Source: Pontederia crassipes
Lineage: Eukaryota > Streptophyta > Magnoliopsida > Commelinales > Pontederiaceae
Direction of reading: 5' to 3'
Assembly (NCBI GenBank): GCA_030549335.1
Contig: CM060194.1
Location: 33,004,171-33,068,170 of the forward strand
Length of the DNA: 64,000 nucleotides
Shown: positions 548 through 63,300 of the stretch, piece after piece
How the letters are laid out: each line of letters opens with the position of its first letter
Numbering within the stretch: position 1 is the stretch's first letter
Translations under genes and position numbers: made by a program
The notes under the pieces: model-generated
The model's database searches: none
What the model was told of the DNA's origin: nothing
What the model saw: the letters and a program-made list of their open reading frames with translations, nothing else

Positions 548-3500
548 TCAGGGGAGCATACGGTCGGAGACTCTTCTTCAGAGTTCCTCCGGTGGAAAAA
601 TGGTGGCGGGCTGTTCCACAGATCGGCGCGCATCCACCCCACTGCCGTCATCGAAGTTGGGGCGGTGGTGCATTCTGATTCTGAACTTGCATCAGACGTC
701 CACATTGGGTCTGGGACTGTCATTGGGACTTCAGTTTCCGTGGGATGCTACACTAGAATTTGGTATTTCAGCAATTTCTTACATCTGAGCAATTAAATAT
801 TTCTCCCTTATTTCATATCTAACCTTTTATTATAAAAGTTATAAATCACCGATAAATTTTCTTCATCTTCATGTTATCACTTTACTTTCTCGGTTACATT
901 TAAGCTTTTTCATTTATCATTTGATGAATTTGCCCCTCTATCTAATAATTCATTTTCTTTTAGAAACAGATACTTGCAAAATGATTTTAATAAAAAGTAA
1001 AAACAATAAGAAAATAAAAACAAATTTGTAAAGAGCATATTAGTTTCTTATGTTTTTCTCAAAATAATTTTAGTTTTAATGAAAACTTTTTTCGTAAAAT
1101 AAAGTGAGTTCACCGCAATCTTTGGAAGCTCTTTTTATCTAAAGTTTTAATTATTTTAAAACGTTTGAGACATGAAATGAGTTTTTTTTTGGTGACTGAC
1201 AATGTTTATAACATAGGGTCAGATATACGAAAGTACACTATAGTTAAAGGGAGTTGAGGAATTAACACAAAAATTAAGTATTTGACCCAACTATTTATTA
1301 CACATTTGGTACCAATCATACTCACACAAGAAATCATATCATCCATATACAATTAGTTTTAATTATTAATAACAAAACCATAAATCGAAGTTTTTTTTTT
1401 TTGAGGATAAATTGAAGATATGGTAGTTACCACTAGTGTTCGTGTCAACAATTGGTTGACACAAAACATGGACTCACATAAAAAAATGGTATGTTCCATT
1501 CCTTTTGTACACAAAATGGAAGTGAACTGAGAGTAGTACACGAAAGAGTAAGATCAACTACAGTGCTAAGTAGTTACAATTTACAAACATTGCATCGAAC
1601 TGTAAGGAAAGACCACAAAATGGTCGGTTTGTAAGCATGATGGTGGTGAATTTTAAATTGGAACACTTTCTTGGTTACAGTTGTGGAAGAAATGTTAGGA
1701 GAAGGAAAGTAGTGTTAATTAACAGCCAATTGCTGAATTACTTGATCCTGTCAGTTCTTCTCTTCAGTACACATTTTTTTGAGATTGAGGGTATTCTCTT
1801 GAGTACATATTTAAACAGTAAATCTAAATTTGACCCCATCACTTCAGGTTTTGCAGGTGATTGTATACGTATCAGATCTGAATGAAGTCATGACTACATT
1901 GTCATAATGAAAAATGTTTTCTTTTGGTTTGTTATAACTATAAAATCAGTTATCCGCTTCAATTTTGTTGTCTTGCAGTCTCTCCCATAATCCAAAATTA
2001 CTATCAGATGCAACTCGCCCCTCAGTAATGATCCAATATAATCTGTGTAGGTATAATGCTGTTCTGAGTAATTGCTGTATTGGCCAGTTCTCGACAATTC
2101 ACAATGGTGTCTGCATTGGCCAGGATGGTAGGACTGAATAGATATTTCTGCAGTGTAATGCAATATTTTATTTCTTTGTAACCAGGTGAAACTAACCATT
2201 TTTTTTAACATCTATAATTTTGTGATTTTCCGTCGCCTAAGTTTGAATTTCATAGCTGATATTTTTCATGTCAAATTTCATAACTTTTGGATTCGCTATT
2301 CTTTGTTTTTTTTTACTGGAATCTATAAGAACACCTAGTTTTGTCAATTGTTACTCTATTACATTTTCAAAGTTTTGGTGTGTCCCTCCCAAAGGCAGGT
2401 TTTGTTTGCAACCTTTCTTTTCACTGTGGGAATGAAATATTGCATCATTCTGCAGTTGCAGTTTTTAGTTTCTTTACTTTTTTTTTGGCCTGTCTGTAGG
2501 ATTTGGATTTTATGTTGATGAAGAAGGCCGAGTTGTAAAGAAGCCCCAAGTCGGTGGTGTTCCCGTCTCTGCTTTAAGAGTTTGACTTTTAATGTATCTG
2601 ATCCCCTATTTGAATTCTACTGTTAGTGCTTAAACAAAAACTTGCTTTCAGGTTTTGAATGTGAAGATTGGGGATCATGTGGAAATAGGTGGCAACACTT
2701 GCATTGACAGGGGAAGGTATCCCTATAACATTTTAGTTTATTGCTTATCAGTTTACTGCTTATCTCAATTAGCACTTCTAATCTTATAAGGTACTGCTAG
2801 TTAGCTTATTTTCTCTAATGTTTTAGTCAGTTTTAATCTTTTTGCTTTATTATGACATACATAGTAATCAAATTCTTGCTATTCCCGTAGTTAACAACTA
2901 CTATTCAACATCTTAATTGTTATACTACAGCTGGAGGGATACGGTTGTTGGAGATCATACCAAAATAGACAATCTTGTTCAAGTAAGCTTGACTTCTACA
3001 CTTTGCACTGAAGATGTCCTCATTTCACTGGAAGTCAGACCTCAACCTAAAGCTAAACAATCTGGTTTTGCAGATAGGTCACAATGTAATAATTGGAAAA
3101 TCTTGCATCATTTGTGGACAAGCTGGAATAGCTGGTTCTGTAACGTAAGCAATTACCTAGCTTCTATGGATGACTACCCAAGCATAGCACTCATCCTTTT
3201 CTTTGTTGAAAAAAACTATTTGTTTCTTTTTCCAGGTGTCCTTGATAGATATTATTACAGGACATATGAGAAATTTATTTGGTAATTACTGTAATATATG
3301 TATAATTTATTAATCATCCATTTGTTTTTTAGGATGGGTGATTATGTCACTTTAGGAGGTAGAGTAGCTGTTCGAGATCATGTTTCCATTGCTTCAAAGG
3401 TAAGTCCGGAGGCTGTAGCGTAAAGATAGCTAGTTATTTTTCTGGATCAAATGATTATGTTTCTGTTGTATAATTGAAGAATATGATGTGTAAGCTTCTG

Positions 3501-4637: not shown

Positions 4638-7600
4638 TCACCTTGCAGCTGTTCTGGCACTCATAGAAGAATGGTAGTTGGTGCTTCTCTGCTTGCGATA
4701 GGAAGAATAAACGTCATCATACTGGCTCACCTCATTAGGGTCAGCAGAAGCCCCAAGACCCAACCGTCCTGAGCCCCCTGATTTGCGGCCCACACTCCCA
4801 TCAGCAAAGGTTCCAGACTCGGGGTCCACCTGTAAATTTGGTGGTGGAGGAATGCATGCCCCGCCCTTCCGAATAGGTGAGTCTCGCTCATACTCATAGT
4901 CCTCATCATGTGATTCGGATGACCTTAGTGGTCCTTCCGAGGGATTGACCTCTCCAATTTCCTTGAAAAATTTGGAAACTCTCTCAAGAACCTCAGAATG
5001 GGGAACAGTTGATGGAGGGATAACAGTAGGTATATCAAGAGGGCTCATAGATGAATATGGCACACCACTACCTATCTGCATCTTCCTGACCATACCAGGA
5101 ATCAGACCAGGAGGGAACAATGGATAAGGTGGGGGCGTCTGGTCTGCTGTAGTTGCTGTAGCATTCTGATGAAGGTGAGGTATCATTGGTTGCCCAGCTA
5201 ATGGCACAGTCGGTTGGGTGGGCAGAGGCCCTGAAAAGGGCTGTGCAACAGGTGGATAAATGCCAGCTGGTGGCTGGTTTGATATTAAATGTGGAGTTCC
5301 AGCATGCCCAAATTGAGGTTGAAGTACATTAAGATGCAAACGTTTGTCAGGTTCCAGTTGATCCACAGCTGCATTCTGTTTATCTATCCACTGTTGAGGT
5401 GCTTGTGGTAAGCCTGCATAGCATACATAATAAAATATAAGGATATAACGTAACACTTTTTTTATTGCCACCTTAAATATGCTCAAAGTAACAGAAACAC
5501 ACGAGCAAGATAACATTCGCAAGGTCAGCTTATCCATAGATGGAAAAAATAGCCAACTCCACAGTGGTATGTTATGATTTGGTTCTGTGTTATGACCAGG
5601 AAATCAAAGTACGAGAACCACAACTAGCACATACATCTATGTGCATATGTTTGCTTTGCGCACTGTGCATGTGCTTGAGAGAGAGCTAGAGAGAGACCTG
5701 AGAAACCAGAGGGATCTGATGCAGTTATCGCATCCTTTTCTGATGTTGAGCGCATTGGCAATCCACCAGTCATTTCTCCCTCAATGTTGGTGATAGTTTC
5801 CTGGTCATACACCTGTTTTGATGCCCAAAATTGCAATATCTTTTCCAACCGAGACTGGTTGGAATCTTTGTTATGTGGATTATTGTAAATCCGTGAAAGC
5901 ATCGCTCCAATCACAGGTTTGAAGGCAAGAGCCTCATTGTCTAGGTCTTGAGGATTTGCTCGACGCTGCAAACTGGAAAAATGGAGTGTTATGGTTAGTT
6001 TGGAAATATCATCAGTTCTTAAAAGTATCCAAAAGCTTCAATACATGAATATTATGAACTAACCTCAAGATTATAGAAAGGTCAATCAAATCTCAGGATA
6101 CTTGTGTTAGTGTTAGGCATCGGATTAAACTGCTTAACTTTATATCCCCAGATTCAAACTAAAATAAACACATTATAGAAATTCTCCTCCTCGCCTAAAG
6201 CTAACATTTCAGGGAAAGAGAATTTCCAACCAGCTCCAGACCAAGTCATATACCCATGCGCATAATTTCTAACACTACAAGTTAAGAACAGAAAACACAA
6301 CAGCAACCATGTTTGTTTTTATTGCATCACTTCAAAAAAAATTTGTCTTTATTGCAATTGCAACCTATTAACATTGTGAAGCACTACTGAGAACTCAGTT
6401 AATGTAACGAAATTTGCATTGCCACTATCATGCTGGAAACTCTAAAATATTGTTCTAGAAAAGTTTAGACATTTTAAACCTAAGACAAAAAATATGAATT
6501 GAAGATAAATCATATATGTTTTTTTTCTGTGTTACCCCTGATAACCAAAAGCCACTGCGTCATGAATACTCTGGATCAAGGGGGAGAAATGTGAAGTCTC
6601 CTAATAGCAATGCTATTGGGATTCGATCTTGTGATTTCTTACCCGGATCCAATGGCTAGTATTTTCTTTCTGAGAGGATCAATGGCTAGTAGTTGAACTA
6701 ACCAACTGCCGTACATGTTCTTTACCTCTATCAAAGAAGCCCAATCTTATTATTGAAAGTTGTAAACATTAGAAACAACTAGATGGAGCATTGTACACCT
6801 ACACAGCTACACCACATATTTTCTTTAGTTACGCAGGGTGGGTGAGCACATATGAGGAAAAAAGTTTTGGAAGTACCATCCCATAGTGTGGTAATCACAT
6901 TCATATGTACTTGTTAATATAATATATCTCCATAACTATCAAGATTAGTTGACCATAATTTTCCAAAATGGAAAAAAAGGAAGCAACTATAAATATAAAT
7001 GTGTAGTAGTGCACTAGTCTCCCATATGCATCAAAATTAGGGAAAAAACAAGATTAACTGTCACAAATGAGTGAAGTGTTTGAAGTCCATAACACACCAA
7101 GAAGATAGGAGATACACCAAAGTGTTATCAAATGCAAAAGAAACAAGAATTACCATAAAACCTTACAGAAGAAAATAGCAAGGAATCCAGACAATAAATG
7201 CTAGAAGAAAAGAAATGATGGAATTCTTCTTCTAGACACAAGTAGAAACAAAGTGAAAAAATTTAGTACCTGTCAAAAAGAATATCATTGGCAAGAAAAA
7301 TGATGTGAAGCTGCCTCTCAGAATCATCTAAAGCAAAAATCCTGTCTCTGAGAGCTTCAGCCAGAGCTGGTGCGAAAGGTGACCTTTGCATAAACCATGT
7401 CTTGGCCCCTTTGATTGATTCCTTTGTGCCATTTAAATTAGTTAATACACCACTAAGTTCTGCAGCAACATCAGATGGAAGTGGACCAGATAAACCCTTA
7501 AAAGATTTAGTTGAAAGTTCATAATCAGCACGACCTTGACCCATGTAAGGCTGGGAATGAAGAGGTTGTTGGTGCTGATCAAAGAAAGGTGGATAAGGCT

Positions 7601-15854: not shown

Positions 15855-17332
15855 TGTCACGAACGTACCCTACAAATGTCATCTTTGCATAATCATGCAT
15901 TTAATTAACATATTAAGTTAGTTTGAATTTCCATTTAGTGATATTTGTATATAGTAATTAATATTTCGATTACAACATACTTATTACTTAATTATTAATA
16001 AACTTTACAAAGTAATTATATAAAGTTATTAGAAATAAATTATAAAATTTATAAATATTATAATATATCTATTTAAATATGATTAAGTAAGTCTAATTAG
16101 GGTTAAAATACTTAGTTATGATAAAAAAAATGTGATTGATCATCATTTAAGTTCCAAGCAATTGAAACAAACAGGTGATGCTTAAAGAGATATTTTTTCA
16201 AACTGCCATATGATGTCAAAAAATTCGGAAAAAAAAGTAACTTAGTGTTATCCTTTCACGTCCAAAGAATTACCAGAAGAAGAACTCAAGAGAAACGAAC
16301 TGGAGAAATTCGAAAACATAGGCTGTTCAAGGTGAGTTCTTAATTCAAAAATTGTCCTTCTGATTTAAAGGATCATTATTTCGTGGTTATCCAACCATAA
16401 ATTATGAAATTTTGTATGGTTAATCCAATAGAAGTTAGCTTTCCATGGCCCCTAAAATCACCTAAAAAAGGGGTTTTATAAAAAAAGTTATGAACTTAAC
16501 TTCGTTGGCCAATCATCCTATCCCGAGTTAGATACATGTTTAATTTATAAATTAGGGCACGATTAAAATATGATGAATTAGGGTTTAAAATTTGGATAGG
16601 ATTAATTAGACATTCCAATGGCTCGATGAGAGGTAGAATCAATATTTGGGAGAAATGAATTTTGCATTTCATATTGATTCTTCTGTCATGTTCTAGGACA
16701 TTGATAGATCACAACCCAAATTCACTATTTTTGTTCTAAGTTTATACAAGTAGTTAAATTCTCTAATTTTTATGAAGAAATAATAAGGAAGTATAGTTTT
16801 TAGGAAAAACATTATCTCATTAAATAGGCAAGTATGAAGAAACATTTAATCTTTCAATGGCACATAGTTAAAGATATTTGGGGTTGGAAACATTAGTATA
16901 TCTAGTTTTTAATTAATACAGAATCAGAAGATGTGCCCATGTGATTAAGAAGCTATGAATTATTAATTGACAGACTCTCAATATGAAATCTTGTGACAAC
17001 ACCTAGTTAAATTTTGGAGGATCGAAAAGTCCCAAGTGTGAAATAGCCTATGAATATAAATATTTAAAGTTAGATATTAGTATTAGAAGATATTATATAT
17101 ATTTTAAGGTGCATAAACATTCATGCATCATGAGCATGCATTGCATATTACTTTATTAGTGATTGAAAAGTAAAAAGACATTATTTACTTGTAGGAAAAC
17201 ATCAAGGTACAAGTGAAAAGAAGAAAAATCTAATAAACCTCCTTGAAAGGATAAAGTATTAAGGTGAGTAGATAAATTTACAACATAACAATTATGTTAA
17301 TTCTTTTATTTAAGATATTATCTCAAGCAGAG

Positions 17333-17380
<48 letters not shown>

Positions 17381-18483
17381 GAAGCATGTCTTGAACTATG
17401 GAAAGTATTTATGATATGTTTCATGAATTTCATATGAGATGGAGAAAACTCTTACATCAAAATATTTTCAAGGAATAATGCTTGTGAACTTAAAATAACT
17501 TAAAAATGATATTGATATGTGATCGTGATATGTTATTTTGGGGCATATATTGGGTCTTTGCCCTTTGAGAGCTGTTCTACGTGTACGTATTGACTCATAT
17601 TATGCTCTTCATATTTGAGAATCATGATTGTGAAGCTCTGTCATGAAGGGATACGTATTGACCCATGATGTACTTTGCGTATACGAGAGTCATGATTGTA
17701 AAGTTCTATTTAACTGTATGACACATATGAAGGGATACATATTAACTCATGATATGATCTGCGTATATATGACACATGATCATGGAGGAATACGTATTGA
17801 CCCATGATAAGTACGTGCAATAATATATGTGTGGAGTTTAACTATGAATAGAATGAGATTTTGAGTTACTTTATTTATGTGAAAATTCCTATAATTTGAT
17901 AACTTATGTTACATGTGTTATGAATTAAATCTTTTCTCATAGTAAAAAAATGTGATTATTTAAATATTATTTGTACTTGTATTGTTCCCTATGTTATATT
18001 TTTATTTCGCTTACTAAGTAAATGATTGTTGCTTATAATACTCATTTTAAAATTTTCAAATACTTATAAGTTCTCGAGTTGAGTCAACTCGGAGTTTATT
18101 TTTGCTGCATATAGAAAAGGTCGAGCCACCAGAGCACTCTTATTTTTCTCTTCACTTTTATTTTTGGAAGCATGCATATAATAGATAAACTTAAGAGTTG
18201 TAAGAGAGTTTGTTAGAATATTTTTGTAAGGATGTATAAAACTTGATCCTGCGGGGTGTTATATGTGAAATGATTTGTGAGACAATAATGATAATATGTG
18301 AACATTATGTCTCATATTCTTGAGTAAACTTTGATGAGTATATATGCATCTATTGTATGCACTAACAAATAACATGAGATAAGTAAGGGGGAGGTTTTAC
18401 CGATTTTATTTTTTGAATTGCTAAACATAATCAAGGGATGTAATAATTGAGATTAAAACTTAGTCACGGAGTTAGGTGTGACA
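15855..18483 (+). mobile_element. Candidate long LTR (~2.6 kb) at the 3' end of the Ty3/gypsy remnant
   Basis: The start TGTCAC follows a purine-rich GAGGAAGAAT tract (polypurine-tract position) directly after the pol remnant. A matching inverted terminus GTGACA occurs at 18478-18483. The span contains no coherent coding sequence and includes a (TTA)16 microsatellite at 17333-17380. The left end of the 7-kb tandem duplication (16551) lies inside this LTR, so the second copy carries only its right part (23541-25506). The LTR extent is inferred from termini, not from a paired 5' LTR. Confidence 0.5.
17333..17380. repeat. (TTA)16 microsatellite, copy 1
   Basis: 48 bp of perfect TTA repeats. It corresponds to the longer tract at 24323-24403 in copy 2. 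Confidence 0.95.
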
Positions 18484-19477: not shown

Positions 19478-19860
19478 TGTAATGCTCCCAAATTTTATCC
19501 TCTTATCGAATGACAATTGAACTTATTTTGGTCCGACGGTACTTATAATTTCTTCTTTTTGAATCTTTCTTACAGAGAACGCAGAAGCGAAATAATTTTT
19601 AAACTTTCTTTTACAAAGTGGGGAAGATAATAACTTTTCTAACTATCCTTTATAATAATCCTCTAAAGGTTAGCTAATTTTCAAATAATTTTATATTAAA
19701 TAAAAAGAAAAGTTCTAATGATCCAATCCCATGTGCATTATCACGAACATTACCGTTGCATATGTTTCCATTTGTACTTATCAGTCCAACTATTTGTAGG
19801 ATTCAAACACAAAAAATAAAATAAAATTTTCATAAGTAATGACGCTCAGTACATGAGATA
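19478..19860 (-). mobile_element. Putative 5' LTR fragment of the minus-strand gypsy element (copy 1)
   Basis: It lies immediately upstream (minus-strand sense) of the TGGTATCA primer binding site and begins TGTAATGCTCCC on the plus strand. It is homologous to 14274-14632. Repeated at 26501-26883. Confidence 0.5.
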
Positions 19861-42800: not shown

Positions 42801-43276
42801 TGATTGATCGTTTTAGTTTTGGATGGCAAAAGGTGCCCCATTATAAAGGGATGAAAGCCTCTAAACTATCTCTTTACAGAACTTCATCCTGAAGTGAGTG
42901 GACAATCTTTCTGAACTATAAACAAACAAAGACTGTTTGGTTTAAACAAAGCTATTTGTTTGGTCTTGCTTGAACTGGCATGAACTGACAAAAAAATGAT
43001 GATACTCACAATTACATAGGTGCTGTTTGGTTGCAGGTTTGTTATCCAAGGAATAAAAGGATTTATTCTGACTGATTAGTTATTCAATGGAATTGAGAAA
43101 AGTTATTCATAATTTGTGTTTGGTTAAACAGTTACTGTTCACGAATAAAATGTGTTACTAATATATGTTAGTTTTGGATAGAGAGGAATAATATGTGGCT
43201 ATTCCCTGAACATATTTAAAAAAATAGTTTTTTTAGAAGGCAAAGGATGACAACCAAAGCTTACTATTGTCATCCA

Positions 43277-43307
<31 letters not shown>

Positions 43308-46300
43308 CAAGATTAGTGATGAACATGCACAAGTAGGGTACTCTCGAAAAGAGAGCGGCAAAAAAGGAGAAAATGCTATCCAGAACCCCTCCCGAACAAG
43401 AAAAGAAGTGTGGTATACAATACTATCCACCTGACATCTCTTCCCATAAAAATGACCCAGTTGCGCTAGAGCCAAATGGCCCAGGCACCAGCCAAAAAAA
43501 ACACCAAAGAGAGCCTGCAACGGGGCCTCCATTCCTAGGAGTTCGAAAAGGTTGCCAAAATGTCTCTGACGATGATGGAAAGCTGTCCAAGAAACTCGTC
43601 GGAAATAGGGAATTCGAAAAATAGGTGGTCAACATCCTCCTCTGCCTCCGCAGAATATGCAAAATGTGTGAGAATGGGGTGCTCATCTCTCTCCGTGAGA
43701 ATTTGGCCTCGCCGCAAAAGCCAAACAAAGAGAGTAGTGCTGAAAAAAAAGCACATAGGACTAACACATTTGCCTCTCCATAAAATGTAAGTTGAGCATC
43801 TGTCTATAACATGGATCTTAGACATATACAAAGGATTGATCACATTTGTAATGTCTAAATTTTTTATATATAAATGAAATGAGAACTGATCAACGGAATG
43901 CAGACCATATATTCATGCCTGGAAGTTGGAAAACTGCTAATAGGTACTGATATTCAAAGCATTACAAGACCAGTAACACATACAACTTCATACAGTAACA
44001 CTTAAATTAAAGGTCTGAACTGAAGCAGAAAAAAGGTGAAAAATGTCTCAGCTCCAAAAAGGAGAAGAAATAATAATGTAGAAGATCTTAGGTCAAGATA
44101 AATGAAGATCAATGATCGATGATCGACTAAAAAGCAGAAAAAAGAGCTCATTTTTAGAGAGAAAAATCTTGAAAAATGCAAAAAGTAATATATGTGGAAA
44201 AATAAGAATGCAAAAGACCTCACAGCAACCCAAAGGAAGAAATGAAGATCAGCTAAAAAAAGAAGAAAAATGAAGAGCTCATTTTTAAAGTAGAAAAATC
44301 ATGAAAAACACGGAGAAATAATAATATATGTGAAAAAATGGGAATGTGGAAGACCTTACAGCAACTCAAAAGAAAAGGACGATCGTGAGGCCAATCGTCG
44401 AGACTGATGGAAGAGAACCTTCTAGAACAGCTGCCGCAACACAGAACACAGGAGAAAGGGAAAGTAAAAAAACACAGGAGAGAGGTGAAAAGGGAACTGA
44501 CAGCATGTATATAAACTAGGGCATATTCATTCTCATCTTTTTGACTAAACTGCTCTTGTGAGTAAAAAAGAGCAGGTTAAATAATTTTGCACTACCAATG
44601 GAATTGCGTAACCTGAAAAAGTTGGGATTAAAAGCCGTTGACTAGATTTGCTTATCCAGTGGGGCTCATCTTCACAAGCATGCGTCTTTGGCAAAATGAC
44701 TATTCCATGTCTAATACTGCAACCAAACAGCACCCTAGTGTGTTAAGTAAATACAAGAATCCCCTGAAAAAAAGTAAATACAAGAATCTGGAATGAACTC
44801 ATAAATCAAATAGACAGTCTTCAAGACTTTTCTGTCTGCTTGTTTTATATGTATACAAAGTGTTATTGAGACGTAATAAGTTTGGTTTATTCTTAGGTCA
44901 GGTGGCATATTCTTGTCCTCTTCCTGTTATGTGTATAATTTGTTATAAAACTTTTTTTTTGAGAGGGAGAAGGATGTGACTCACCAGAATGTTAACCATC
45001 CACCCAAGGATTAATTCATTGAAATTGAGGGGTAAAACATTACATCGAAAGCCATAAGTGCAGAGAAGAGGATGAGAGAAAATAGAACAAAGTGCAAAGT
45101 CAACCATATTGAGACCTCTCCCTGATCAGGGCAATGGCATGAGCGAAGATATTCTTGACATAGCAGTGGCCTCCCTGAAAAATCACCATGTTTCACTGCA
45201 GCCAAACAGCCCTAAAGAATGAAAAATTCTGGCAAGCCCGACCGGATTTGTAGGTAATAATCTGCGAAGAAGCAACCCCTCTCCTGAAAGTGGTCCAGAA
45301 ATTTTCGTCAGATCCACAGCTAAGCCAATCAATGCAAGCCTGAATCCTAATTTCCTTGATGAAAGAGCACTTTAAAAAGAGATTATCTGTATCCACTTCC
45401 TCACCAACACACAACCTGCAATCAGAGATCCCCGGCTGCCACCTGCCCCAATAGGAAGCTGTAAGGATCCCCCTTCGCTGAAGGAGCCAAATGAAGATTT
45501 TTATTTTAGTTGGGACACTGGTCCTCCAGATAAGACGGCAATCAGTCACCAGATTAGGATAATCATAGTGCAGAGCTTCCCCAGCAATATATAGGCCTGT
45601 TTGACAGTGAACTTACCCTTTGGAGGACTTATTTATAATTTGAAATGCTTTCTTCTTGAGTTGCAACATTCTTTTTTTGAAATTTTATTTTCTCATGATA
45701 TCTGAGGGTTACCCATAAACTAGCAAATGTGAAGTTTTCCATGTTAGGATCTGCATTTGCACAAGCTCAGTGCACATACCTTAGTGTAGTATGGTGTTTT
45801 CCAGATTCAGAATGGCTCCTAGACGGCCTCACATTGAATAACTTTTTTTTTTTTCTTTTACAGTGTGAAGAGACACAAAAAGAAAAGAGGTGATGGAAAC
45901 AGTGATGTTTCGGAAGATCTTAGAGTCTCTGAGGGCCTTGAAGATAGGAAAAAAGAGAAGGCTTCATCAACTGATGAGAAAGATGCCTTTGAAGAACAGG
46001 TCTCAAATTTGTTTCGTTATTTCTCTCAACATGTATTGCTTTGTTGTCATTTTTCTAAAAAATCTTGTAATTTTCTTTATGGATGAGCTTATATCCTTCA
46101 TGTTGACTTATGCAGTTAAAGCATATTCAGTTGGAAATTGAGACACTCGATGATGAGAATCATCAACTTGAGGTCTGCTTTATTGTGCATTTGGGAAGTT
46201 TTGATTTTACTTACAATTTCTGGTTATTTAGTTCATCTTTTGAAAACATGGATATTGTAGTTAAGAGTAGTTACAAAAAAAAGCAGTTAGTGGTGATGAT

Positions 46301-49300
46301 ACTGGTTCTTGTTCAATTGTTTCTGCATAGTTTCAACTATTTGTAACAGGAAGCTTTTCTACTCTGTATACGTCTATGAGTTCTTTTTCACATGTGGACT
46401 TAGATTAGGTTTTAAATAGGATGATATTTGACCTCACGAGGAGAAAGGATTTTTTTTCTTCATAAAAAAGAGGCATTCATAGAAACTTCATATTTTTGCT
46501 TATTGATTCAAATTTTGAATGTTTCATATTTTTATAATTCACCTATCTTTGATATACAATTTGTTATAGCTGAGAATATTGCTCACATTTGCATCCTTGG
46601 TCTTTTTTTCATCCTATCTACTTCTGGAACCTTCCCCTCAAAGAAATAGATTATTATACTCTTGATGGTAGTTATTCACCTATTTGCTCCTATGTGTTTC
46701 GTACATTTTGTGAAACTTGCTCATTTCGACTGTGTATTATTTTTAAATGTTGCTAGTTTGCATCACTAACAAGCTTATTTTTATACATATCTCTATTCTT
46801 TACTTTATCTTTGGGGTGATTTTTTTGGAGGCTCTCTTTTGATTTTATCTTCTGGTGATTCTCTATAGATCCTGTTGGAAGAGAAAGTTGATGAATCCAA
46901 AAAACTTTCTGATCGAGTGGAAGAACTCGAATCACAACTTATCAAGGAACAAGAAGACTGTAAAAGGTCATACATCATATTATCATAAATGATGTTCTGG
47001 GTAGATTTTTTACTTGTAAGAAAGATTTTTTTTGAGGGAAAATAAGATGACTGCCATCCACATATATATATCACTGTATTTGTAAGAAAAATGATTTAGT
47101 ATTTGCTGACAGATGTGCCATTTGATTTGTCTACCTTATTTTTCAATGCTTTCATTCTAGGGTTAATTCAAGAATTGAAAAGTTCACTAAAGTTCACGGG
47201 CGGTACATAAAGGCACAAGAGGAATTAAAGAGGTAATTGTTTGACAACATGCTCCCTATTGGATAACATTTACTGAGATTTTCTTAAAAAAAGTACTTTT
47301 ACCGAGATCTTGCTGCTTAACTTCAATGTAGTTAGTTAGCTACAACCAAAGGATGCCTTTTATGGAGCTCTTCTTGCAACATCTACCTGTCTCTTTACAC
47401 AGGCTACAAAAGTGATTTGTTATTTATTGAACTTCGACACAGGCTACAAAATCGTCTGCGGAGATTGGTTGATCAGAATAGTTCAGATATATTAAAACCC
47501 AGTGTCAATGAAGAAAATTCAGGTGACAATGCTTTTGGTGACAGAGAGCCTGACAGTGGAAATAAGACGAGCCAAAGGAATTTTGAGTTGCCACATAATA
47601 CGTTGCCCACTAAGAAGAGGTCTTTTGGTTATCCAACCACCAGCGAAGAGGCGAAAATAGGTTAGGAGTCATCTGGGAACTATACACAATTCCACTATGT
47701 TTTAGAAGATTTGTTTGACTTACTGGATCTTCGTCCTATCTAGGAATCCTCCTTGAGCACTTTAATGTTCAGTTCTTTCATATTGAATGTGGCTACATTC
47801 TACATCAAACATATTACTTCATTTCCTGTGTTGCATTCATATTTCATGTTTGCACATGTTTTTTTTTTCAGGAGATCGCACATGTCACTCTTCGTTTATT
47901 GTTGGATGTGATCATTGTTTGTTTGTTTTTTTTCTGCTCAAATGTTTTATATTGGGAACTTTAGTTTTTCTTGTGCAATGACATTTTTGTTCATTTAAAA
48001 CGTCAAGCACTGGATTACCATCCTGTTCAAGAGATCTTAACCTCATGAACCTTGAGTTCAGCACCTTGAACTATATAGGTTGTGGGGAAATGCTAAGTGC
48101 AGAAATGCACCAAACTTGGTCACAGATACAAGTCACTAAAAGATACTAGGTCTCACTGCATAAAAATCTGGGGCCTGAAGTTTGATAGTGTAGAGAGCAT
48201 GTTATCTGCTTGTTAGTCGAAGTTCCATAATTTCATTGGCTTTTTCTTGCAGGTCATAAGATGTCTCTCTTTTTATTTAAGAGTTGTCATGTTGAAACAT
48301 GTCAGTGATTACATGGATGACAACCAAATTGGTAGTCATCCTTTTCCTTTTCAAAAAAAAAAAAATGTCGTGATCACCTCTGCATACTTGTATTGTTGTC
48401 GCAGCTGGCTGCTTAGCAAGGCCTCCAGAAATCAGTTAGCTTTCCAATTTTAGTAACCTTTTGAAAATAGGCTACAAATATGAAGAAAAATGTTATGCAG
48501 TCAACATTCATTCATCATTTTTTTAATCACGGAGTTGAAGTGGGAGTGATCATCTCCACAGCTCCTTGTTTCCTTTTTTTTGTATGTTTTGTTTTCTCCC
48601 ACCTGAAATTGTATAGAAGTTTGAAGTTTTTGTTGAAAAAAGAGTTCAACCACCTTTTTTTGATGTGGTGATGGTTTACACCCCCTTTTGGTTTTTCTTG
48701 CACATTTTCTTTCCATGTTATTTAGTCAATCCTTGCGGTTTTTGTCTATCTAATGCAATATTTCCCAATTCATCCTTTAAAAAAAAGATGGTTCCTGATT
48801 CATTTTTGGTTCATCGTCTGATTGTCTTAGGCGATTCACGTAAAAGAGAGAGACTTTCAGAGGCCATGCACAAATCAGAAAAGTTTATTGGGTCTGAAGG
48901 TCCTGGACAGCAGTCATCCTCTCTTAGCAAAGGAACAGACACAATTAGAGCACTCATCAATAAATATAGATCACCTGCAAATGTTCTTAAGCATAAACAT
49001 GGTTCTAACCGCACTGCCTCTTCGGATAAGGTGTGTCATTTTTCTTATTTCCTGAGGCTATTTTGTATGTTCTATTGTTGTTACATCACATCTGCTTCCA
49101 TATTGTGTAGTTTTTCTTATGCTGTATAGCATATTTTGTTGGTTTATTCATCAGCAACTTGTAATGGTTTCAGTTTTATCCAGATGTAGGTTTCTGATGA
49201 TAATTCAACATTGCAATTTGTTCTCTTATTATCTTAGTGTGCCTCATTACTTTTCTTCTCTTTTCATTTTGTTCTCTACTGTGTAACAGCAATTCTATTT

Positions 49301-49954
49301 GTCATCAGGCAAAAGGTTCTGAAGTTCGCCATTCTTTGCCTTCCACTGGTATGGCTGCTCATGCCGTAGATGAATTCAACGAGGCTACTGAACTGAATGA
49401 CACAACTGAAACCTTGGGTGACACTACAGTCGTAGAAAATGGAGTCATGGATAATGGTATCAAGTCATCTTACATGCCACCCCCACCTCCTCTACTAAAT
49501 GCAAAAGATACTTACAAGCAGGTAAAGAAGTTACCCGCTGTTATTTTCATCATCAGCTACAGTCATGTCTCTGGCCTTCAAAGTAAACATGATATAAAAT
49601 TGATTCAAACTATGTAGTGTCCTTATGCAAACTTTTAAGTGGAGCCCTATAGCTTCACGAAGAAGCCTTTATTTATTTATTTTTTGGAAAAGGAAGAAGC
49701 CTTTATTTGCTTTTGGCAATGCAAAGCTAACTTTATGTTCACTAATAAACCAATGTTCCGGTAAAGCGATCTTTATTTTATTTGCTTATGTAATGATAAT
49801 CTCTTATGCTTGTTAGTCATACCGCGAATCACGAGTTTTTACTTGTTGGTGCTTTCAGTACGAAGGCGATGACGAAGAGGTGGATGTAGAAAAGATGGAC
49901 GATGAGATGTTAGATATTGACCTCAATAGCGAGGTGGAAATTGAGCAGGTATAA
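39898..49954 (+). CDS. CCCH zinc-finger protein with a central coiled coil
   Basis: Eleven exons: 39898-40024, 42013-42150, 42541-42571, 45864-45999, 46116-46172, 46869-46966, 47161-47232, 47443-47660, 48831-49030, 49309-49521, 49859-49954. All phases agree; 461 aa, stop TAA. Residues 1-42 contain KLYKTKLC and a C-x7-C-x4-C-x3-H finger (Cys12, Cys20, Cys25, His29) followed by GDAELRRFGGSF. An Arg/Ser-rich segment (DLRDKLDRRHSPYRRYSPAR) and a basic KRHKKKRG stretch suggest nuclear RNA binding. A long coiled coil (about residues 150-240) has heptads such as LEEKVDESKKLSDRVEELES. The C-terminus has PPPPPLL and an acidic tail. It matches the plant family related to Arabidopsis At3g21810 and rice CCCH proteins of this layout; molecular function is not established. 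Intron 3 (3.3 kb) hosts transposons. Confidence 0.93.
40025..42012 (+). other. Intron 1 of the CCCH gene
   Basis: A 2.0-kb phase-1 intron (AACG|GTATCG ... TTGAAG|GTCGAC). Its first ~335 bp are duplicated at the window start. No nested gene was recognised. Confidence 0.9.
42317..42353 (+). repeat. (GGGA)n followed by an uninterrupted G-run in intron 2 of the CCCH gene
   Basis: Several GGGA units run into about 18 consecutive G residues on the transcribed-sense strand. Such a tract can form G-quadruplexes and is prone to slippage or assembly error. Confidence 0.9.
43213..43850 (-). mobile_element. L1-type LINE 3' fragment inside the DNA element
   Basis: The minus strand encodes zf-RVT-type text (FVWLLRRGQILTERDEHP, then EEDVDHLFFEFPISDEF) followed, after a frameshift, by the usual ORF2 end. 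The 3' end at about 43213 has a T-run, AGAAGG and a perfect-type hairpin GGATGACAACC...GGTTGTCATCC-like (43236-43276, one arm shortened), then a (TG)n/(TA)n tract. It is truncated at its 5' end. Confidence 0.8.
44100..44375. repeat. Two ~135-bp tandem units within the DNA element
   Basis: Each unit contains ATGAAGATCA, AGAGCTCATTTTTA, GAAAAATC.TGAAAAA, AATATATGTG.AAAAA and GAAAGACCT.ACAGCAAC.CAAA-like blocks in the same order. A partial third unit precedes them at about 44030-44095. Confidence 0.75.
44745..44788 (+). mobile_element. 10-nt A-rich insertion between 17-nt direct repeats
   Basis: AAGTAAATACAAGAATC occurs at 44745-44761 and again at 44772-44788, separated by CCCTGAAAAA. It fits a minimal retroposed 3' end but could also be a short duplication with filler. 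Confidence 0.45.
44950..45630 (-). mobile_element. L1-type LINE 3' fragment in intron 3 of the CCCH gene
   Basis: The minus strand encodes SVPTKIKIFIWLLQRRGILT, CRLCVGEEVDTDNLFLKC and a following ORF2 end: the zf-RVT domain with its Cys pairs, here one of the less decayed copies. The 3' end is a T-run followed by GAGAGGGAGAAGGATG. TATAATTTG occurs on both sides (about 44937 and 45628), a possible target duplication. Confidence 0.8.
47014..47095 (-). mobile_element. 53-nt LINE 3'-end insertion with target duplication (CCCH intron 6)
   Basis: The insert 47027-47079 is T-run, GAGGGAAAATAAGATGACTGCCATCC, then a TA-rich tract, lying between TTGTAAGAAAGAT and TTGTAAGAAAAATGAT. It retains the tail, half of the hairpin and the TA tract seen in the longer LINE copies. 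Confidence 0.6.
48300..48377 (+). mobile_element. 53-nt LINE 3'-hairpin plus poly(A) insertion with target duplication (CCCH intron 8)
   Basis: The insert 48313-48365 is the hairpin GGATGACAACC...GGTAGTCATCC, then CTTTTCCTTTTC and 13 A. It is flanked by TGTCAGTGATTAC (48300-48312) and TGTCGTGATCAC (48366-48377). It is in sense orientation to the CCCH gene and shows the complete 3' recognition structure with nothing else. Confidence 0.7.
49659..49708 (-). mobile_element. 18-nt T-rich insertion with exact 16-nt target duplication (CCCH intron 10)
   Basis: GAAGAAGCCTTTATTT at 49659-49674 and 49693-49708 flanks ATTTATTTTTTGGAAAAG. T-run followed by a purine-rich end, as in the other LINE-end stubs. 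Confidence 0.55.
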
Positions 49955-54307: not shown

Positions 54308-57300
54308 TCAAACAAGCGTCCGCAACTTCGTCAACATAGTTTGCATGCTTTCAAGCTTCTGCATGAGATCATTTACGCCTGAAATGTGATCCGAAGTGTC
54401 TGCACTGCTCAACTCTGAAACAAGTTTCGAACATTTGGCCTGCGAATCTGAAATTTCGGCTTCTAACAAGGCAATCGTGGACTGCACGGTTTCATTTGGA
54501 GCCTCCATGATGGCGTGTGAAGGGGTCCTGGGAGTGCAGCAGACACTGCCAAAACTACTACGCCTACTCAGTTTGTCTGGCGTCAGAATTTTATCTATGT
54601 TACCGCTTCCTGCAAGAATATAATTGATCAAAAGATGCATAGCAGATAGCACACTAAACACCCGAGAGAGAAAAATTAGGAATGCAGTACACACTAAGTA
54701 GATTAGTGCAATGAAACCAACTAGCCAAAAGTCATAAGCCATCAGCAAGCTCATACACAAGAATGACTAAGAACATTGGTTAGATCATCAAATATTTCAA
54801 AAGTAATTCTAACATAGACCGCCATGCAAATCTGGAAATGAAAACTGTGCAATTTTCATTTTCTCGAGAATTGGAATGTTCCAGTTCGAACACATCATAA
54901 ACCAAAGAACTTACAAAATAAAACTTAAGCTTGTAATAGAATTCTTACCTAAGTTAGTAAGCTGATCCATAGCACCTTGGCCAAGTGATTTATCAAGCTT
55001 AAGCAAACGCAGCATTCCAGCTGCAATTCTGCCCATTGAATCAATTTCAGATCTGCAAAGAGAAGCAAGGTGTTCCAACTCCTCCTTTGTAGCAACTGCT
55101 TCAATCTGCGTTACAGTCATCCCAAGTAACTCACGTCATACTTGTATTCACCACAATAAGAGAACAAAAAGATTTGCAACTTTACCGGTTCTTTCACTGA
55201 GAACTTAATATTCTCCAGTATCCACTTTGCCATCATATCATCGTTGTTGTCAACAACAACTAGACCAACTTCAACATCTAAACCATTGTTACCAACTTCA
55301 CCTAATGACTTCGTTTCTCTCTCCACTTTATTTTCTCCTGAATCTGCTTTAGCATTTTGATGCATCAGACGTGGTTTCAAAGCCTGGAGACCTTCTATAG
55401 ACACCTGCAGTGATCCTTAGCATAATGAGTCATGCGGAAAAAAGAAAGCAAAAGTAATACCAGTGTACATTCTTCAGCCCTTCCCATTCTCACTACACTT
55501 TGTTATACTACAACTACCATAAAGATAGCTTCTTGAAGAAAGTTTGGCCCTAGCCATGAGCCACACACTTAAATCTCTATGTGAGACACTAACAGTTTAC
55601 ACAACATGATGCATATCCTAAAATTTGATTAGTACAAATTTCATTTGAAAGACACAAGATTAAGGCCAATGGAAATTAGGAACAAGTCCAACACAAGAAA
55701 TAAGCTTAGAAGTGCTGTAAGCCAACAGCCTAAGAAAGATCATAGATCGACATCAATAGGCCTTGAGAACTAGTTGATTAGACATTAAAATTTTGGTTTG
55801 ATGTTTGTTTGAAAGAACTGTAATCATGAACTAAAAAATCAATGACCTTTAAATTCTAAAGAGTATTCGGACGAAACATGAAAACTAAGACAATTTTACT
55901 TCTAAAAAGATAAAAATATTAAGTTGAGCAAAAAGTATGACAACTGATTATTATTTTGAATAATAAAACAATAAACAATATAAAAATGAGATTATATATA
56001 AGGTTTTATTTACAATAATCGTACTTGTAGCACTACTGAAATAAGAATATTGAATTGCAATAAAATATTTATGATATTATTCAAAAGTATATGTAACATA
56101 ATACAACAAAATATTTTCTCAAAAAAAAAAAACAACAAAATATCAAGTTTAGCATGATTTATAAATTTGACATGCAAAAAAGTATACTTGTGGTAATACA
56201 AAGGTACTATACATGTAGTTAAAAAAATGAAAATTTGTTGTAAACATTACTACATCCAATAATTACAAATATAATAATATAAACTTGCTACAATGTATAA
56301 TAATTTTGTCGTCCTTTCTCATTTAAAAAAAAATGTTAGTATATATTTTAGCTAATAACTTAATAGAACCCAAATTATAATATAAATTATTTGGTGCAAT
56401 AATTTTAATTCAGAAAAGAACATTATTTCTTTTCTAAAAGCAAAAAGGATGGCCACCCATTTGTGGTAGTCATCCATATCTAATTGAACTTGATAGAGAA
56501 CATTACTTTTTTTTTTTGAGAAGGGATAGAGAACATTACTCAATAATCTATTAGAGAATAAATTAGAAGTTAATTAGTAGCTTACCTAGATAATGTTTTG
56601 GAGAGTTAACATTTTAAATAAAAATTAGTGATCTAGTTAAAAGTATTGATGATTACTAAATATAATAAATAAAACTATTATTTTTCTGTAATAAACAAAT
56701 ATTAGTATGTGCATAGCATTAAGTGTAATAATATAATGGGTTGATTCTTTTGCTGCCTTGAAACTATCGGGTATTTCCATATCCAACCGTGCATTATAAA
56801 AAATGCCAATTGGCTCTTTAAACTTATATCATGTAATTGATATAAATATCAAGTATTACGAAATTGGACAGAGGGATTAAAATGTTGGGAGTACAAAAGT
56901 TCGAGTCAAATGACATTTTTTATAATACAAGGTTAGATATGGAAATATGGCATAAGTAAAAAAAATTAACCACAACATGAAAGTGTTGATATATAATTAA
57001 CAATTCACATTTATTTTAATTAATATCTACATTAAACCATAGACAATAGTCTAGTGTAATATTAAATTAATATTTAAACATATTGTAACATTGAAAAAAT
57101 ATAATATAGATAATAGAACAAAACACCACTTTAGAAAAATGGAAGATAAAAATAGAGGTACCAATCGTCGACTGGAAACAGCTAAAAGCAAAAACCTTAA
57201 AACCAAAACCATGGTCATGAGATCCTTTGATGGGAACTTCAGTTCTGTTGATTCTAGCTTAGGCCATCAAGTCATTTGACAGAATCTGTGGAAGCCAAGG

Positions 57301-60300
57301 TTATTCTGGCCACAGCCAAACCAGCCCAAACCTATTTGATGCACGAAAGAAAAAACTTAGAAAAAGAAATAAAATGTGGAAAAATGACCATAGACCTGGA
57401 ATGTACAACTCCTGTAGATGTATGATATAATCAAATCCTGAGTAAATATACCATAGGTTCTTCCCTATTTGGTGATACCATCAGTGAGGCATCTTCATAA
57501 TGGTGGGATCAGTACATACTTTCTTTTTGGAATCATCAGTACACCCTGGAGCAACATTAGCGATTACTTTCCCTGGATGGTAGCTTTGGCCAAGAGCAGT
57601 AATGGATCCAGCTTAAATTTTTAGGGGGAACAAGCATGTATATATATTATATATAAACTTTAATTTTCTTTTTATATATTATGTAGTCATGTGAAAATTT
57701 GGAGGTTGGGGAGCAAGCCCTCCCTCCCAAAATGATCCCACTCCATCCCTGGGGCCAAGAGGCTTCGGTGTCATCATATTGGTCAGGCCCAAAAGACATG
57801 CAGGGCTGTTAAACAAGATTTGCGATAACATTTGCACCCTCCCTGATGATGTTTAGTCCTCACCTTATTAGACAAGATATCCAACTTCTTTTTAGGAGAA
57901 CAAGATATCGAACTTGAGATGAGGAATTCGATGCCTTGCCTCTGCACGGTACCCACAAAGCCTATGATTTTGCATAGTGCCACCGGTTATTGCATTGGGT
58001 AAACTTTTGTTACTCATGTAGTCCTAATAACTTCAGGAAAAATGCACGGGCATGGTCCTTTGGTTGATTCTTGGCCCAAAGAATATATGCCAAATTTCTG
58101 CCCATGACACCTAAAAGATGGACAGGCAATATACCGGCAATGTCGTAAGGATTGTGTTAACAAGAACAAGGCGGCCACTACGAGAAAAGAATCTAGATTT
58201 CCAGCTGTCCCACCTTTTTTCCACACTTTCCACCATTTTTGTCTAGTCTCTCACTAAAATTTTCCTGTGGTCAAAGATAGTCCAACAATGTGAGAGGTAA
58301 GAGCCTCCACACACATTGACATATGGGCACCTAATTTTGACACCATATGTGCTTTGTGAGCCGGTGAGGATGCTACCCACATAATAAAGTAAGCCTAGGG
58401 GGCCTAGATTTTTTTTTAGAAGAAAAAGGATGGCCACCCTATTATGCGGTTGTCATCCAGGTATATATATATATGGAATGAGAATGATAGACAAGTGTGA
58501 GCTGATGATGTAGGAGAAATAAGATAATATTTTAGTAGTTATTGTTGTTATATTTATCTTTTTAGATTACTTAGAATCTATTAGTTAATATTGTTATCTT
58601 TTAAATTAGTTTAGATTTAATTGTAAAATGTCTATAAATAGGCATGTACTCTTTTGTTATTGATAGTTCAATTATTATCCAATTATTCATTAAACATGTG
58701 TGGTTTTATTCTCGGTGGATTTCGAGCCTCGGTGGATTCTGAGTTTATCAAGCTATTGATGGTGCTTTGAACCGTCAACCTCTTTCGAGATTCGTCCAAA
58801 AGTTGTAATCTCCTCCACTTTACGATCCTCCACTGCGTCAAGATTTTATTCTCGGTGGATTCCGAGCCTCAGTGGATTCCGAGTTTATCAAGCTATTGAT
58901 GGTGCTTTGAACCGTCAACCTCTTTCGAGATTCGTCCGAAAGTTGTAATCTCCTCCACTTTACGATCCTCCGTTGCGTCAAGTGGTATCAGAGCCTTCGA
59001 GGAGATTTACCTCTTCATCCCGGTGCTCGTCTTCTTTTTCATTATCCATTTATTATTTTATTTTATTTTCCTTCCTAACTGAAATGTCTCCATTATTTTT
59101 ATTTTGTTTATTTTCTTATTTGACTACCTCTTTATCATTTTTCTTTCTCTTTCTCTTTTCCCTCGTCATTTGTTAATTACATTATTTTTATCTTTTTTTT
59201 TGTTTTTTTCTTTTAATTTTATTTAACTAATTAGATGAGGATAGATCCACCTTCATTCAATGGGTATTTTGATATCGATGAATTTTTACATTGGATTTCT
59301 AAGGTTGAACACTTCTTTGATTATTAGGATATTCCGGAATCTTAACAAGCCAAATTAGTGGCCAACAAATTTTCAGGCAGAGCATTTTCTTGGTGGAAAG
59401 ATAATAAGTTTGTTATCACAAACAACCTATTCGGAATGGAGAAAGTTGAAAAAAATACTCGTCGAATATTTTTTTGCCTTCATCATATCATTATGTTGTT
59501 TTTCAACAATCAAGCAAATATCAACAAGAGAGGCAAAATTTATTGCAAGAAGTGCAAATTCATTTGAAGAACATCAAAAATTTGATTGAGAAAGTTCAAC
59601 AACGATTGGATAACATAATCAATAAAGTTCCCCACACTCCATCAGATTTTATGCAATCTTGTGAATATCAAGTATCTTTGGAAGTTATATTTGCTCCAAC
59701 TGAAGTACTACAAGAGGCTATTCAACATATTAAAATCTATCCAAATACTGAAGAGTTGGTTATTTTGAATTTTCTTGCAGAATCTGTGCAATCTTGTGAA
59801 GATCAATTATCTTTTGGAAGTTGTGTCTGTTCCAATTGAAGAATTACAAGAAACTACTCAAGATATCAGAATCTACCCAAATTCTGAAGAGTTGGTTATT
59901 TTGGATTTTCTTTCTGAAGCAAAAGAAGATAAATTTATTCAGGAGGTGGATGAAAAGTTGGAATCAAATCCATAAACTGACAAGAAAAATTTGCTTCAAA
60001 TTCTTCAAGTTGATATGAGATGCGTCAAAGTTTTTGTCAGCACCAAAGATTATGAACTTTTGCAGATTGCATTTTCACGCCAAATTTTTATAACAATATA
60101 TTTGGTACTGCTATACAATATACTTGGCTTGAATGACTTATCTGATGAGTTGAAAAAGAAGATTAGACCGTTGCGGGATATTACGCGTGAACCTCCAGAT
60201 ACAATTTTTCAGAGTTCGAGGTCGAACTCTTTTGAAGAAAGGGAGAATGATATAGGAGAAATAAGATAATATTTTAGTAGTTATTGTTGTTATATTTATC

Positions 60301-63300
60301 TTTTTAGATTACTTAGAATCTATTAGTTAGTATTATTATCTTTTAAATTAGTTTAGATTTAATTGTAAAATGTCTATAAATAGGCATGTACTCTTTTCTT
60401 GTTGATAGTTCAATTATTATCCAATTATTCATTAAACCTGTGTGGTTTTATTCTCGGCTCGGTGAATTTCGAGTTTATCAAGCTATTGACGGTGCTTTGA
60501 ACCGTCAACCTCTTTCGAGATTCGTCCGAAAGTTATAATCTCCTCCACTTTACGATCCTCCGCTGCGTCAATGTAGGAGAAATAAGATAATATTTTAGTA
60601 GTTATTGTTGTTATATTTATCTTTTTAGATTACTTAGAATCTATTAGTTAGTATTGTTATCTTTTTTTTGCGGGAAAGAAGGATGTTAGGTGGTTGTCAT
60701 TCGGTGTATATATAACTATGGGATGAAAATGATATACAAGTGTAAGCTCTCAAAGTGAGAGCAGAGCAAAAGCAAAAAGTATTGTTATCTTTTAAATTAG
60801 TTTAGATTTAATTATAAAATGTTTATAAATAGGAATGTACTCTTTTGTTATTGATAGTTCAATTATTATCCAATTATTCATTAAACTTGTGTGATTTTAT
60901 TCTCGGTGGATCCCGAGCCTCGGTGGATTCCGAGTTTATCAAGCTATTGATGGTGCCTTGAACCGTCAACCTCTTTCGAGATTCGTCCGAAAGTTGCAAT
61001 CTCCTCCACTTTACGATCCTCCGCTGCGTCAGCTGAGCTCTCGAAAGAAAGCGAAAAAAAATGGAAATCAACTATCCAAAACCTCACTCCCACAAAAGAA
61101 AAGGAATGTGGTGTACAATATGCTCTGACCGACTATCACTCCCCATAAAAAATCACCCGGTTACGCTGAAGCCATATGGCTCAGAACCAGCAAAAAAACC
61201 GCCAGTGGCGCTCTCCATCTCTGCCTCTGTCATGTGAGAACTCGAGAACATCGCCATAAAGACTGAGAATCCAAGGGAAAGAGATCTCCGATGGTCGTCC
61301 GTTGCCAAATGCCTCGTGCTGTCGGGCAATCTAAGAATCGATGATCAGCGTCCTCCTCCACCTCAACACACAAAACACAGCTAGTGTCCGTGTGAGGTGC
61401 CAATCTCGCCCTGTATATCCTGGTGAGAAGCTGGTCCCGATGCATGAGCTAAACAAAGATCTTGACTTTTAGCAGTATTCAAGATCTCCAGATGAGTAGA
61501 CTCATCTGCCATGAAATCCTCAGATGCATCCATGTCTGGAAGGAATCTGATATATAAGCTGCGTGCTGACCAAGACTCTGAAAGCCATTCCTAGCAGTCT
61601 GACCTGGAACGGTCGAGCCGGTAGGGAGAGATCCTCTGGTGAAGCGCGCGCTAGGAGCTCAGTGAGTGATGCGCTGGTCCGTAAGAGCTGATCTAAAAGG
61701 GGGGGGGGGGTGGTGGTGGGTCCAAGAACTAGAGTCAGTGGCACCAGCTTCGGACCAAGTCTCGCATCAGGATGTGCTGCCAGAGCATATAAATGAGGGA
61801 ATGCCACCAAAATGAGAAGTACTCTCTAGTGCCAAGTGAGGGTATCATGAGTGGGTGCACTTGCAGGAGCAACGCCGCCACTCCCCTCCAAAAAAATGAG
61901 GCCCCACGAGGCAAGATAAGCCTTGACTTCCAAGATAGGCTGCGCCCATAGCAGGTGAAGAAGACCAAACTCCGTAAGCTATCCTCAGGCTCTAAAGGAA
62001 TAATTGGGCTTGATGAGAGGACCTAGATTTGATTTCTTCAATCTTTCAAGGACGTGTTTTATACCAATGGGACACATTCGTGACAGTTTTTTTAGCCATT
62101 TGGCTTGAAGATAACAACTTAGCTCAAAGGAGAGAAATGCTACATTTTTTTTAGAAGAGAAATGCTACATTGAGAACATTATACTTTTTTTTGAGAAAAG
62201 AACATTATATATCACATCCAGTTTTTTCCTACAGAAGTTTTATAATACTTTGTCACTCATCGCTAACTATATATGCACATCTTTCTAGATTCACACGAGA
62301 AGGACTAGTCCTTTTTCTATTCACCCTTTTACTCAATAAAAAAGTACTATATATTGGAGGAAAAGGAGTGGAACCAACAAAAGGATGGATAAACAATAAA
62401 CTTTTGTAAGTTGTTCTTGCACTGATAAACATTACATTACAACAACAACAACAACAACAAAGCCTTATCCCACTAGGTGGGGTCGGCTACATGGATCATA
62501 CGACGCCATATTCGTTGATCCATGTTCATGAGATTCGACAGGGTTATTGATAAATATTACATTATTTAGATATTTTGATCAATGAATATCATGTACATCC
62601 TAGTTTATGACAAATAGTAAGTTTCTTGTTTGTTATTAATAGAAAGCTGTTGTCATCAAAATGCCCTGGAAGCTTTTATAATGGTTATGGCATCGTTTCA
62701 GCCCTTCTATTCCCCTCCTCAACTCCTAATCCAAACAGGGTATAAAATTATTCTCAATCAAACCTAAATGTTCTATACGAAAGACCAATTTAAGCAATAT
62801 CATATTAAAAAAATCAACTGATATGCTCACTATGCACCTGCTCTAGAAGAGAGAAAAAGCATGGGCACAACCACTTAGGGAATGCCGACGACAAGTAACT
62901 TGGTGGGCTTCCAGTTAAGAGAATGAAGATGTTAGCTCCACCTGTCCTATTATAACAACAGACTGCCATTTACCTGATATTCCATAACTGCAGTTGACTA
63001 CTACTTGTAGACCATGTTATTTGCTTATATGTTCCCTTACTATTTGCTTAACTGTTTATCGTGGGTATGCTCCATAAAGATCCATCCAATGCTTTTGTTT
63101 TTGGCATGGATGGTAATTATTGTAGGAGCATTGTCAAGTACATATGAACTATACCGATGATGCTGTTTTAGGATCCCTTTTTTGTTAGGGGGTGTTTTAA
63201 TATCCTTATTCAGAGATCCTTACACTATCATTACTCAAACAAAGATTTTCTTTCTTCCAAATCTGATGTCACCTTCCACTCTATTCTACTTTGGTGTTAC

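Follow-up and report, generated by a model that had tools for sequence, protein, structure and literature searches.

Short LINE inserts in the window

The stretch of DNA analysed here (the window, 64,000 nt; C12:33004171-33068170 of the 1.13-Gb Pontederia crassipes genome) contains copies of a long interspersed nuclear element (LINE), a long terminal repeat (LTR) element nested in one of them, and a series of short inserts lying between direct repeats. Most of these inserts consist of a T-run followed by GAGAAG-like letters, or of the same in reverse with an A-run, and we refer to those that hold only the tail of the LINE, between target duplications, as solo tails. Here and elsewhere in the genome the inserts display target duplications, a shared end motif, empty sites in homologous copies, and break points that cluster ahead of a hairpin near the 3′ end of the LINE.

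A sequence-only reading had listed eleven such inserts between direct repeats of 10-17 nt. In a full readout, all 11 intervals held a short insert, led by a T-run or ended by an A-run, between direct repeats of ~10-17 nt, though the quality of the repeats varies: they are exact at six sites (44745, 49659, 56492, 60650, 62131 and 62173), carry one mismatch at 1380 and 57872 and one indel at 6645, and are ragged at 47014 and 48300. Two further sites had been missed, 56103-56143 with the motif and 44445-44481 without it, and the insert at 60650, present between its repeats, measures 112 nt by revised boundaries and not 117. The thirteen sites are as follows.

1380..1417, minus strand: solo tail, insert T12-GAGG, duplication ATAAATYGAAG with one mismatch
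6645..6691, minus strand: short insert TTTTCTTTCTGAGA with an impure T-run, between GGATC(C)AATGGCTAGTA repeats with one indel; flanked by two open reading frames (ORFs) with CID-domain parts
44445..44481, plus strand: A-run-ended insert without the CTTCTC motif, 11-nt exact repeats, empty paralogue (L091)
44745..44788, plus strand: 10-nt A-run-ended insert CCCTGAAAAA, 17-nt exact repeats
47014..47095, minus strand: ~55-nt insert whose hairpin has decayed, broken off just beyond it, ragged repeats
48300..48377, plus strand: insert carrying poly(A) and an intact hairpin GGATGACAACCAAATTGGTAGTCATCC, broken off just beyond the hairpin, ragged repeats
49659..49708, minus strand: solo tail, T-run then GGAAAAGG, 16-nt exact repeats
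56103..56143, plus strand: solo tail TTTCTC-A(n), 12-nt repeats
56492..56540, minus strand: solo tail T10-GAGAAGG, 16-nt exact repeats
57872..57915, minus strand: solo tail, T-run then AGGAGA, 16-nt repeats with one mismatch
60650..60793, minus strand: 112-nt LINE 3′ end inside an LTR, 16-nt exact repeats
62131..62171, minus strand: solo tail, T-run then AGA, 16-nt exact repeats
62173..62209, minus strand: solo tail, T-run then GAGAAA, 11-nt exact repeats

Since the insert at 44445 lacks the CTTCTC motif, it is not assigned to a family. The two tails at 62131-62209 have different duplications and lie ~1 nt apart, as at a hot spot or after linked events.

Frequencies were assessed with a detector that has no knowledge of the motif and asks for an exact direct repeat (11 nt or longer) whose first copy adjoins a T-run (6 or more), on both strands; the mirror arrangement (T-run on the wrong side) served as control. 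The detector reported 7 window sites, versus a single one for the mirror arrangement. A slightly modified second version, run on the window and on 50 dinucleotide-preserving shuffles of it, again gave 7 versus 1, and the two lists of seven differ by one member each, the modified version being without 56103 and adding a 177-nt insert that lacks the motif. Shuffled sequence, a comparison that the earlier reading had named as a possible refutation, yielded a mean of 0.26 sites per shuffle (maximum 1; mirror mean 0.36, maximum 2) against the 7 in the window. With repeats of at least 10 nt, real versus mirror totals were 8 versus 1 in the window and 11 versus 5 in the flanks of 30 sampled loci. The scan was also applied to 180 kb not selected by motif, drawn from the 5-Mb point of 18 contigs, after 2 satellite loci of 20 had been dropped. 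These two loci (L005 and L020, 10 kb each, from 5 Mb of C5 and C20) are satellite arrays with a unit of ~170 nt, judging from the spacing of detector matches. Satellites were rejected as a source of the pattern: the two arrays gave many matches in either arrangement, all of which a tandem filter removed.

The source LINE and its tails across the genome

The source of the inserts is a LINE. Its longer copies share a 3′ end made up of a hairpin, TTTTCCTTCTC and poly(A), and the short inserts that bear the motif have the same CTTCTC-A(n) end. Three features of this element lie in the window.

43233..43803, minus strand: longer LINE copy whose end comprises the 3′ hairpin (43245-43275) and poly(A), with tblastn similarity to hairpin-bearing loci
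45193..45612, minus strand: LINE fragment with a zf-RVT domain (E 1.4e-11)
58428..58458, minus strand: 3′ hairpin of the LINE copy hosting the LTR element

The zf-RVT domain (Pfam) is encoded at 45193-45612 and in L035 and L031 (two of the eight ORFs tested outside the window); the ORFs of the copy at 43233..43803 gave no Pfam match. Searches by tblastn with the LINE ORFs of the window found matches in further hairpin-bearing copies, and several of the longer copies with a hairpin match this protein instead of pointing to a tRNA-derived short interspersed nuclear element, which would have a tRNA-like head with pol III boxes. Six of 31 candidate hairpin copies were excluded from the alignment: L035 and L088, which resemble others, and L072, L081 and the window copies at 47014 and 60650, which have diverged. 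Across the 25 that were aligned the hairpin is conserved, with compensatory changes in 4 of 8 pairs.

A scan of the genome for T-run-GAGRAG patterns, part of what the sequence-only reading had proposed, uncovered an excess over reversed patterns: T8-GAGAARG occurs 1558 times versus 112 for its reversed control, and T8-GAGAAGG 1266 times versus 42. The match extends exactly into N-AAAGGATGACNACC at 247 places (control, 0). At these places the letter ahead of AAAGG is linked to position three of the GACNACC stretch: an A is paired with T or C, a G usually with C and a C usually with A, a pattern that suggests at least three LINE subfamilies.

Seventy T8-GAGAARG places (30 plus 40, the first listed, all on C1 and C2) were inspected for a second repeat copy 0-44 nt beyond the T-run, with a score of at least 9 as the main threshold. 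Such a copy was present at 20 of the 70, whereas exchanging flanks between loci produced one in 4 of 280 combinations (5 of 280 at a score of at least 8). In 15 of those 20 places the insert breaks 4-10 nt beyond the T-run, mostly at GAGAAGG, and four further places (L043, L057, L080 and L090) do so at a score of 8, so that 19 of the 70 are solo tails between target duplications; about 17 of these are independent, because L064 and L083 represent a single event seen on both homologous chromosomes, and L057 resembles L090. The other five at or above the threshold comprise a tandem duplication (L033), an AT-rich site that is probably chance (L045), a break in the hairpin loop (L067), and two breaks just past the hairpin (L068, L073). 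Among the remaining 51 places, 26 pass a simple hairpin test, ~8 have partial or variant hairpins by eye and ~17 are unclassified. That GAGAAG places are merely the ends of longer LINE copies is ruled out by the 19 solo tails.

C1 and C2 are haplotypes or homeologues in the assembly. At the sites compared they run collinearly over their length, in reversed order, with an identity of 93-98% at seven of the eight sites, the remaining one reaching 85%. Inserts present on one of the two but not on the other can be dated.

Empty sites were sought with joined-flank queries for 18 sampled sites, 40 of 638 candidates being scored. Apparently empty second copies were found for 8 of the 18, all on C2, and all eight, when fetched and aligned, are without the insert and without one repeat copy. 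They face five solo tails (L038, L040, L043, L060 and L062), the loop break L067, and L068 and L073; the empty site of L043 is slightly ragged, and a further copy of L040, of filled length, is on C13. For L077, several copies of empty length were matched by joined flanks, lengths only. In the window the same search covered 11 sites, with 60650 and 62173 outside the query set, and at nine of the 11 no second place across the junction was found. The insert at 44445 is absent, together with one repeat copy, from a paralogue of 81% identity (L091), and three more copies are of intermediate length; at 56103 the sole second copy (L092) is diverged and ragged. For the 60650 insert, alignment shows the two other LTR copies in the window to be empty, each with one copy of the 16-nt target and one mismatch.

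58508..58840, plus strand: sister LTR, empty for the 60650 insert
60250..60582, plus strand: sister LTR, empty for the 60650 insert

The clean single repeat copy expected of true insertions is accordingly seen at all eight fetched sites, if slightly ragged at L043, and for 60650 and 44445 in the window. The LTR element itself, with three LTR copies at 58508-61031, is nested in a LINE and has been struck in turn by a LINE tail, which makes three ordered insertion layers.

As for genomic setting, the earlier reading placed all eleven inserts in introns and none in a 30-kb gene-poor part. The second statement stands, all 13 window sites lying outside 10-40 kb. The first does so for one of the eleven, 6645, which is intronic because it lies between two ORFs that each carry part of one CID domain; 60650 sits in the LTR element nested in a LINE, and the others may lie in introns. 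Much of the gene-poor part (16550-30561) is a ~7-kb tandem duplication with copies 99.97-100% identical, either very recent or an assembly artefact. Pfam searches with 10 ORFs near 7 solo loci returned Vps52_C above the cut-off (L036), and an NAD-binding domain (L050) and Dynein_light (L040) below it; these hint at genes near by and have no bearing on an intron bias.

Break points ahead of the 3′ hairpin

The break points of the inserts are not uniform, and their one preferred position before the 3′ hairpin goes beyond what had originally been observed. Of 16 motif-free matches outside the window, eight break 5-6 nt after the T-run, two at 3-4 nt, two at 10-11 nt, and four are longer. At 5-6 nt the break sequences are GAGAAG, GAGAAC, GAGAA, AGAAG, GAGAGC and AGGGGA, with L021 and L024 sharing one. 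No pure poly-T insert occurs among the 16, though the detector would accept one. By eye, 9 of the 13 window sites break 3-8 nt past the T-run. The cluster lies ~5-7 nt beyond the poly(A) and ~4-6 nt short of the hairpin stem; after the consensus GAGAAGG there are four letters and then the stem. Only one break with a repeat falls inside the hairpin (L067, in the loop), and a small group falls just past it (L068, L073, 47014 and 48300).

We regard it as likely that these solo tails arose when RNA of a hairpin-ended LINE family was copied by target-primed reverse transcription, which often stopped before the hairpin. That LINE 3′ ends were inserted by this route had been proposed from the sequence alone, and the duplications, the A- or T-run at one end, the CTTCTC-A(n) end, the zf-RVT copies and the empty sites all bear the proposal out. 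The further idea that reverse transcription was aborted is favored by breaks that cluster before the hairpin, though a template cut beforehand fits them too. In the proposed sequence of events, the RNA would end in the hairpin, a short spacer, CTTCTC and poly(A); the target DNA would be nicked, and reverse transcription would begin in the poly(A) and copy CTTCTC. A large share of events would then halt ~4-6 nt ahead of the stem, and the aborted cDNA, once joined to the target, would remain as a solo tail flanked by target duplications. Copying that gets through the hairpin would stop soon beyond it or continue for hundreds of nucleotides. Either the stable stem or the LINE protein gripping the hairpin may cause the stop. 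More tentatively, we suggest that the hairpin by which the LINE would recognize its own RNA might also act as a gate that the enzyme must melt or release, with a quarter to two fifths of started insertions failing there; we hold this extension to be possible without favoring it.

The main rival is a template shortened in advance: the LINE RNA would be cleaved close to the base of the hairpin and the resulting CTTCTC-poly(A) fragment retrotransposed to its end. A fixed RNA end explains the sharp break as well as arrest does, but the breaks just past the hairpin (L068, L073, 47014 and 48300) and in the loop (L067) need extra cuts, and a hairpin-less fragment would lack the recognition signal of stringent LINEs, if the part consulted of PMC4176376 is applied to this family. 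We consider such pre-cutting unlikely, if well ahead of the other alternatives.

Joining could instead set the break, the cDNA end pairing with 1-2 nt of the target at a microhomology for which the purine-rich GAGAAGG offers the most matches. The second repeat copies of most solo tails do start with a purine, as do the next letters of the element. The purine-rich stretch continues, however (NAAAGGATGA), with no further breaks in the sample of 70 places, and L036 and L041 begin with T. This explanation is weaker than arrest or a pre-cut template, and we think it quite improbable.

Short tandem duplications are known to arise at breaks, and repair of breaks with filler DNA could mimic the pattern with no retrotransposition. 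Unrelated and unoriented filler would be expected in that case, but the filler found is always the LINE 3′ end plus T-run, the T-run stands against the first repeat copy, and the mirror arrangement is rare; we give break repair very little weight. Chance in AT-rich sequence, which may account for isolated weak cases (L045, the mirror matches of the motif-free scan, or individual sites in the window, for example 6645 or 47014), has a negligible claim on the whole set given the shuffles, swapped flanks and reversed patterns, and the empty sites rule it out there.

Several observations weigh against arrest of target-primed reverse transcription at the hairpin, or limit how far it can be pressed. 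The ORFs given to Pfam contain no reverse transcriptase or endonuclease domain but only zf-RVT, and the loci reach only ~1.5 kb into the element; we infer for that reason no more than that the family is L1-like. LINE endonucleases nick at sites of the TTTT/AA type. No common nick sequence emerged among 15 listed sites, where overlap with the T-run hides the exact nick. The hairpin has a small covariation term (-0.3), and the window copies at 47014 and 60650 show weak folding or none. The peak at 7 in the sampled places may partly be an edge, because the sampling pattern demands 7 nt of element, and only the smaller motif-free set answers this, in part. The 70 places are confined to C1 and C2, and as these are homologous some events are counted twice (L064/L083). 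Of the 18 queried sites, six (L036, L037, L041, L064, L074 and L085) are filled in the second copy too, as judged from filled length or pattern, and for L050, L058 and L080 the joined-flank queries found no second copy, which with 40 of 638 candidates scored is no proof of absence. Real versus mirror counts in the 180 kb not selected by motif are only 5 versus 3, weak taken alone.

To our knowledge, the reason for the truncation of LINE copies has not been settled. A preferred break just before a structural element makes the cause directly testable. Given so many LINE-tail inserts of ~10-30 nt, failed jumps may be common and usually overlooked small mutations. If our preferred explanation holds, failed LINE insertions make up a frequent kind of small indel that differs in presence between homologous chromosomes, and the initiation and elongation of retrotransposition can be counted separately. 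Should the hairpin also be a gate, solo tails would be a genomic record of initiation without elongation, a tally of failed retrotransposition, and a steady source of ~25-35 bp insertions (tail plus duplication) missed by repeat masking.

Comparison with known LINEs

Our literature search lay mostly outside subscription journals, and within it we found neither tail-only LINE inserts in plants nor a large class of LINE tails with a preferred break before a 3′ hairpin and empty homologous sites. The nearest counterparts are the 5′-truncated LINE-1 and Alu copies of mammals, which likewise combine target-primed reverse transcription, duplications, poly(A) and truncation on the 5′ side. In the part consulted of PMC4859970, the shortest tabulated Alu insertion, from a disease case, comprises 6 nt of Alu followed by a 40-nt tail and is accompanied by a 1.4-kb deletion, and a legend implicates stem-loops in the 5′ truncation of recent Alu insertions. 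That Alu case, as given there, is single and comes with a deletion, whereas the solo tails described here form a many-copy class with one preferred break before the 3′ hairpin.

Among plant elements, the L1 lineage ‘monocot 1a’, together with the short interspersed nuclear elements of maize and sorghum that share its 3′ end, is described in the part consulted of PMC3747384 as ending in a hairpin and poly(A), for which stringent recognition was proposed. The family studied here resembles it as a plant LINE ending in a hairpin and poly(A). The marks given there for monocot 1a, CGAG following the stem and a UCU within the loop, did not occur in the LINE copies examined here, which have a NNNTTCTC-type sequence (TTTTCCTTCTC) after the stem and a different, variable loop.

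In LINEs of the stringent type (ZfL2-1, ZfL2-2 and UnaL2), a 3′ stem-loop is bound by the LINE protein and required for retrotransposition, according to the part consulted of PMC4176376, which does not report tail-only inserts. These are zebrafish and eel LINEs, with binding shown for zebrafish. Like them, the present family carries a stem-loop near its 3′ end, and recognition of that hairpin by its own protein is presumed here from this shared architecture.

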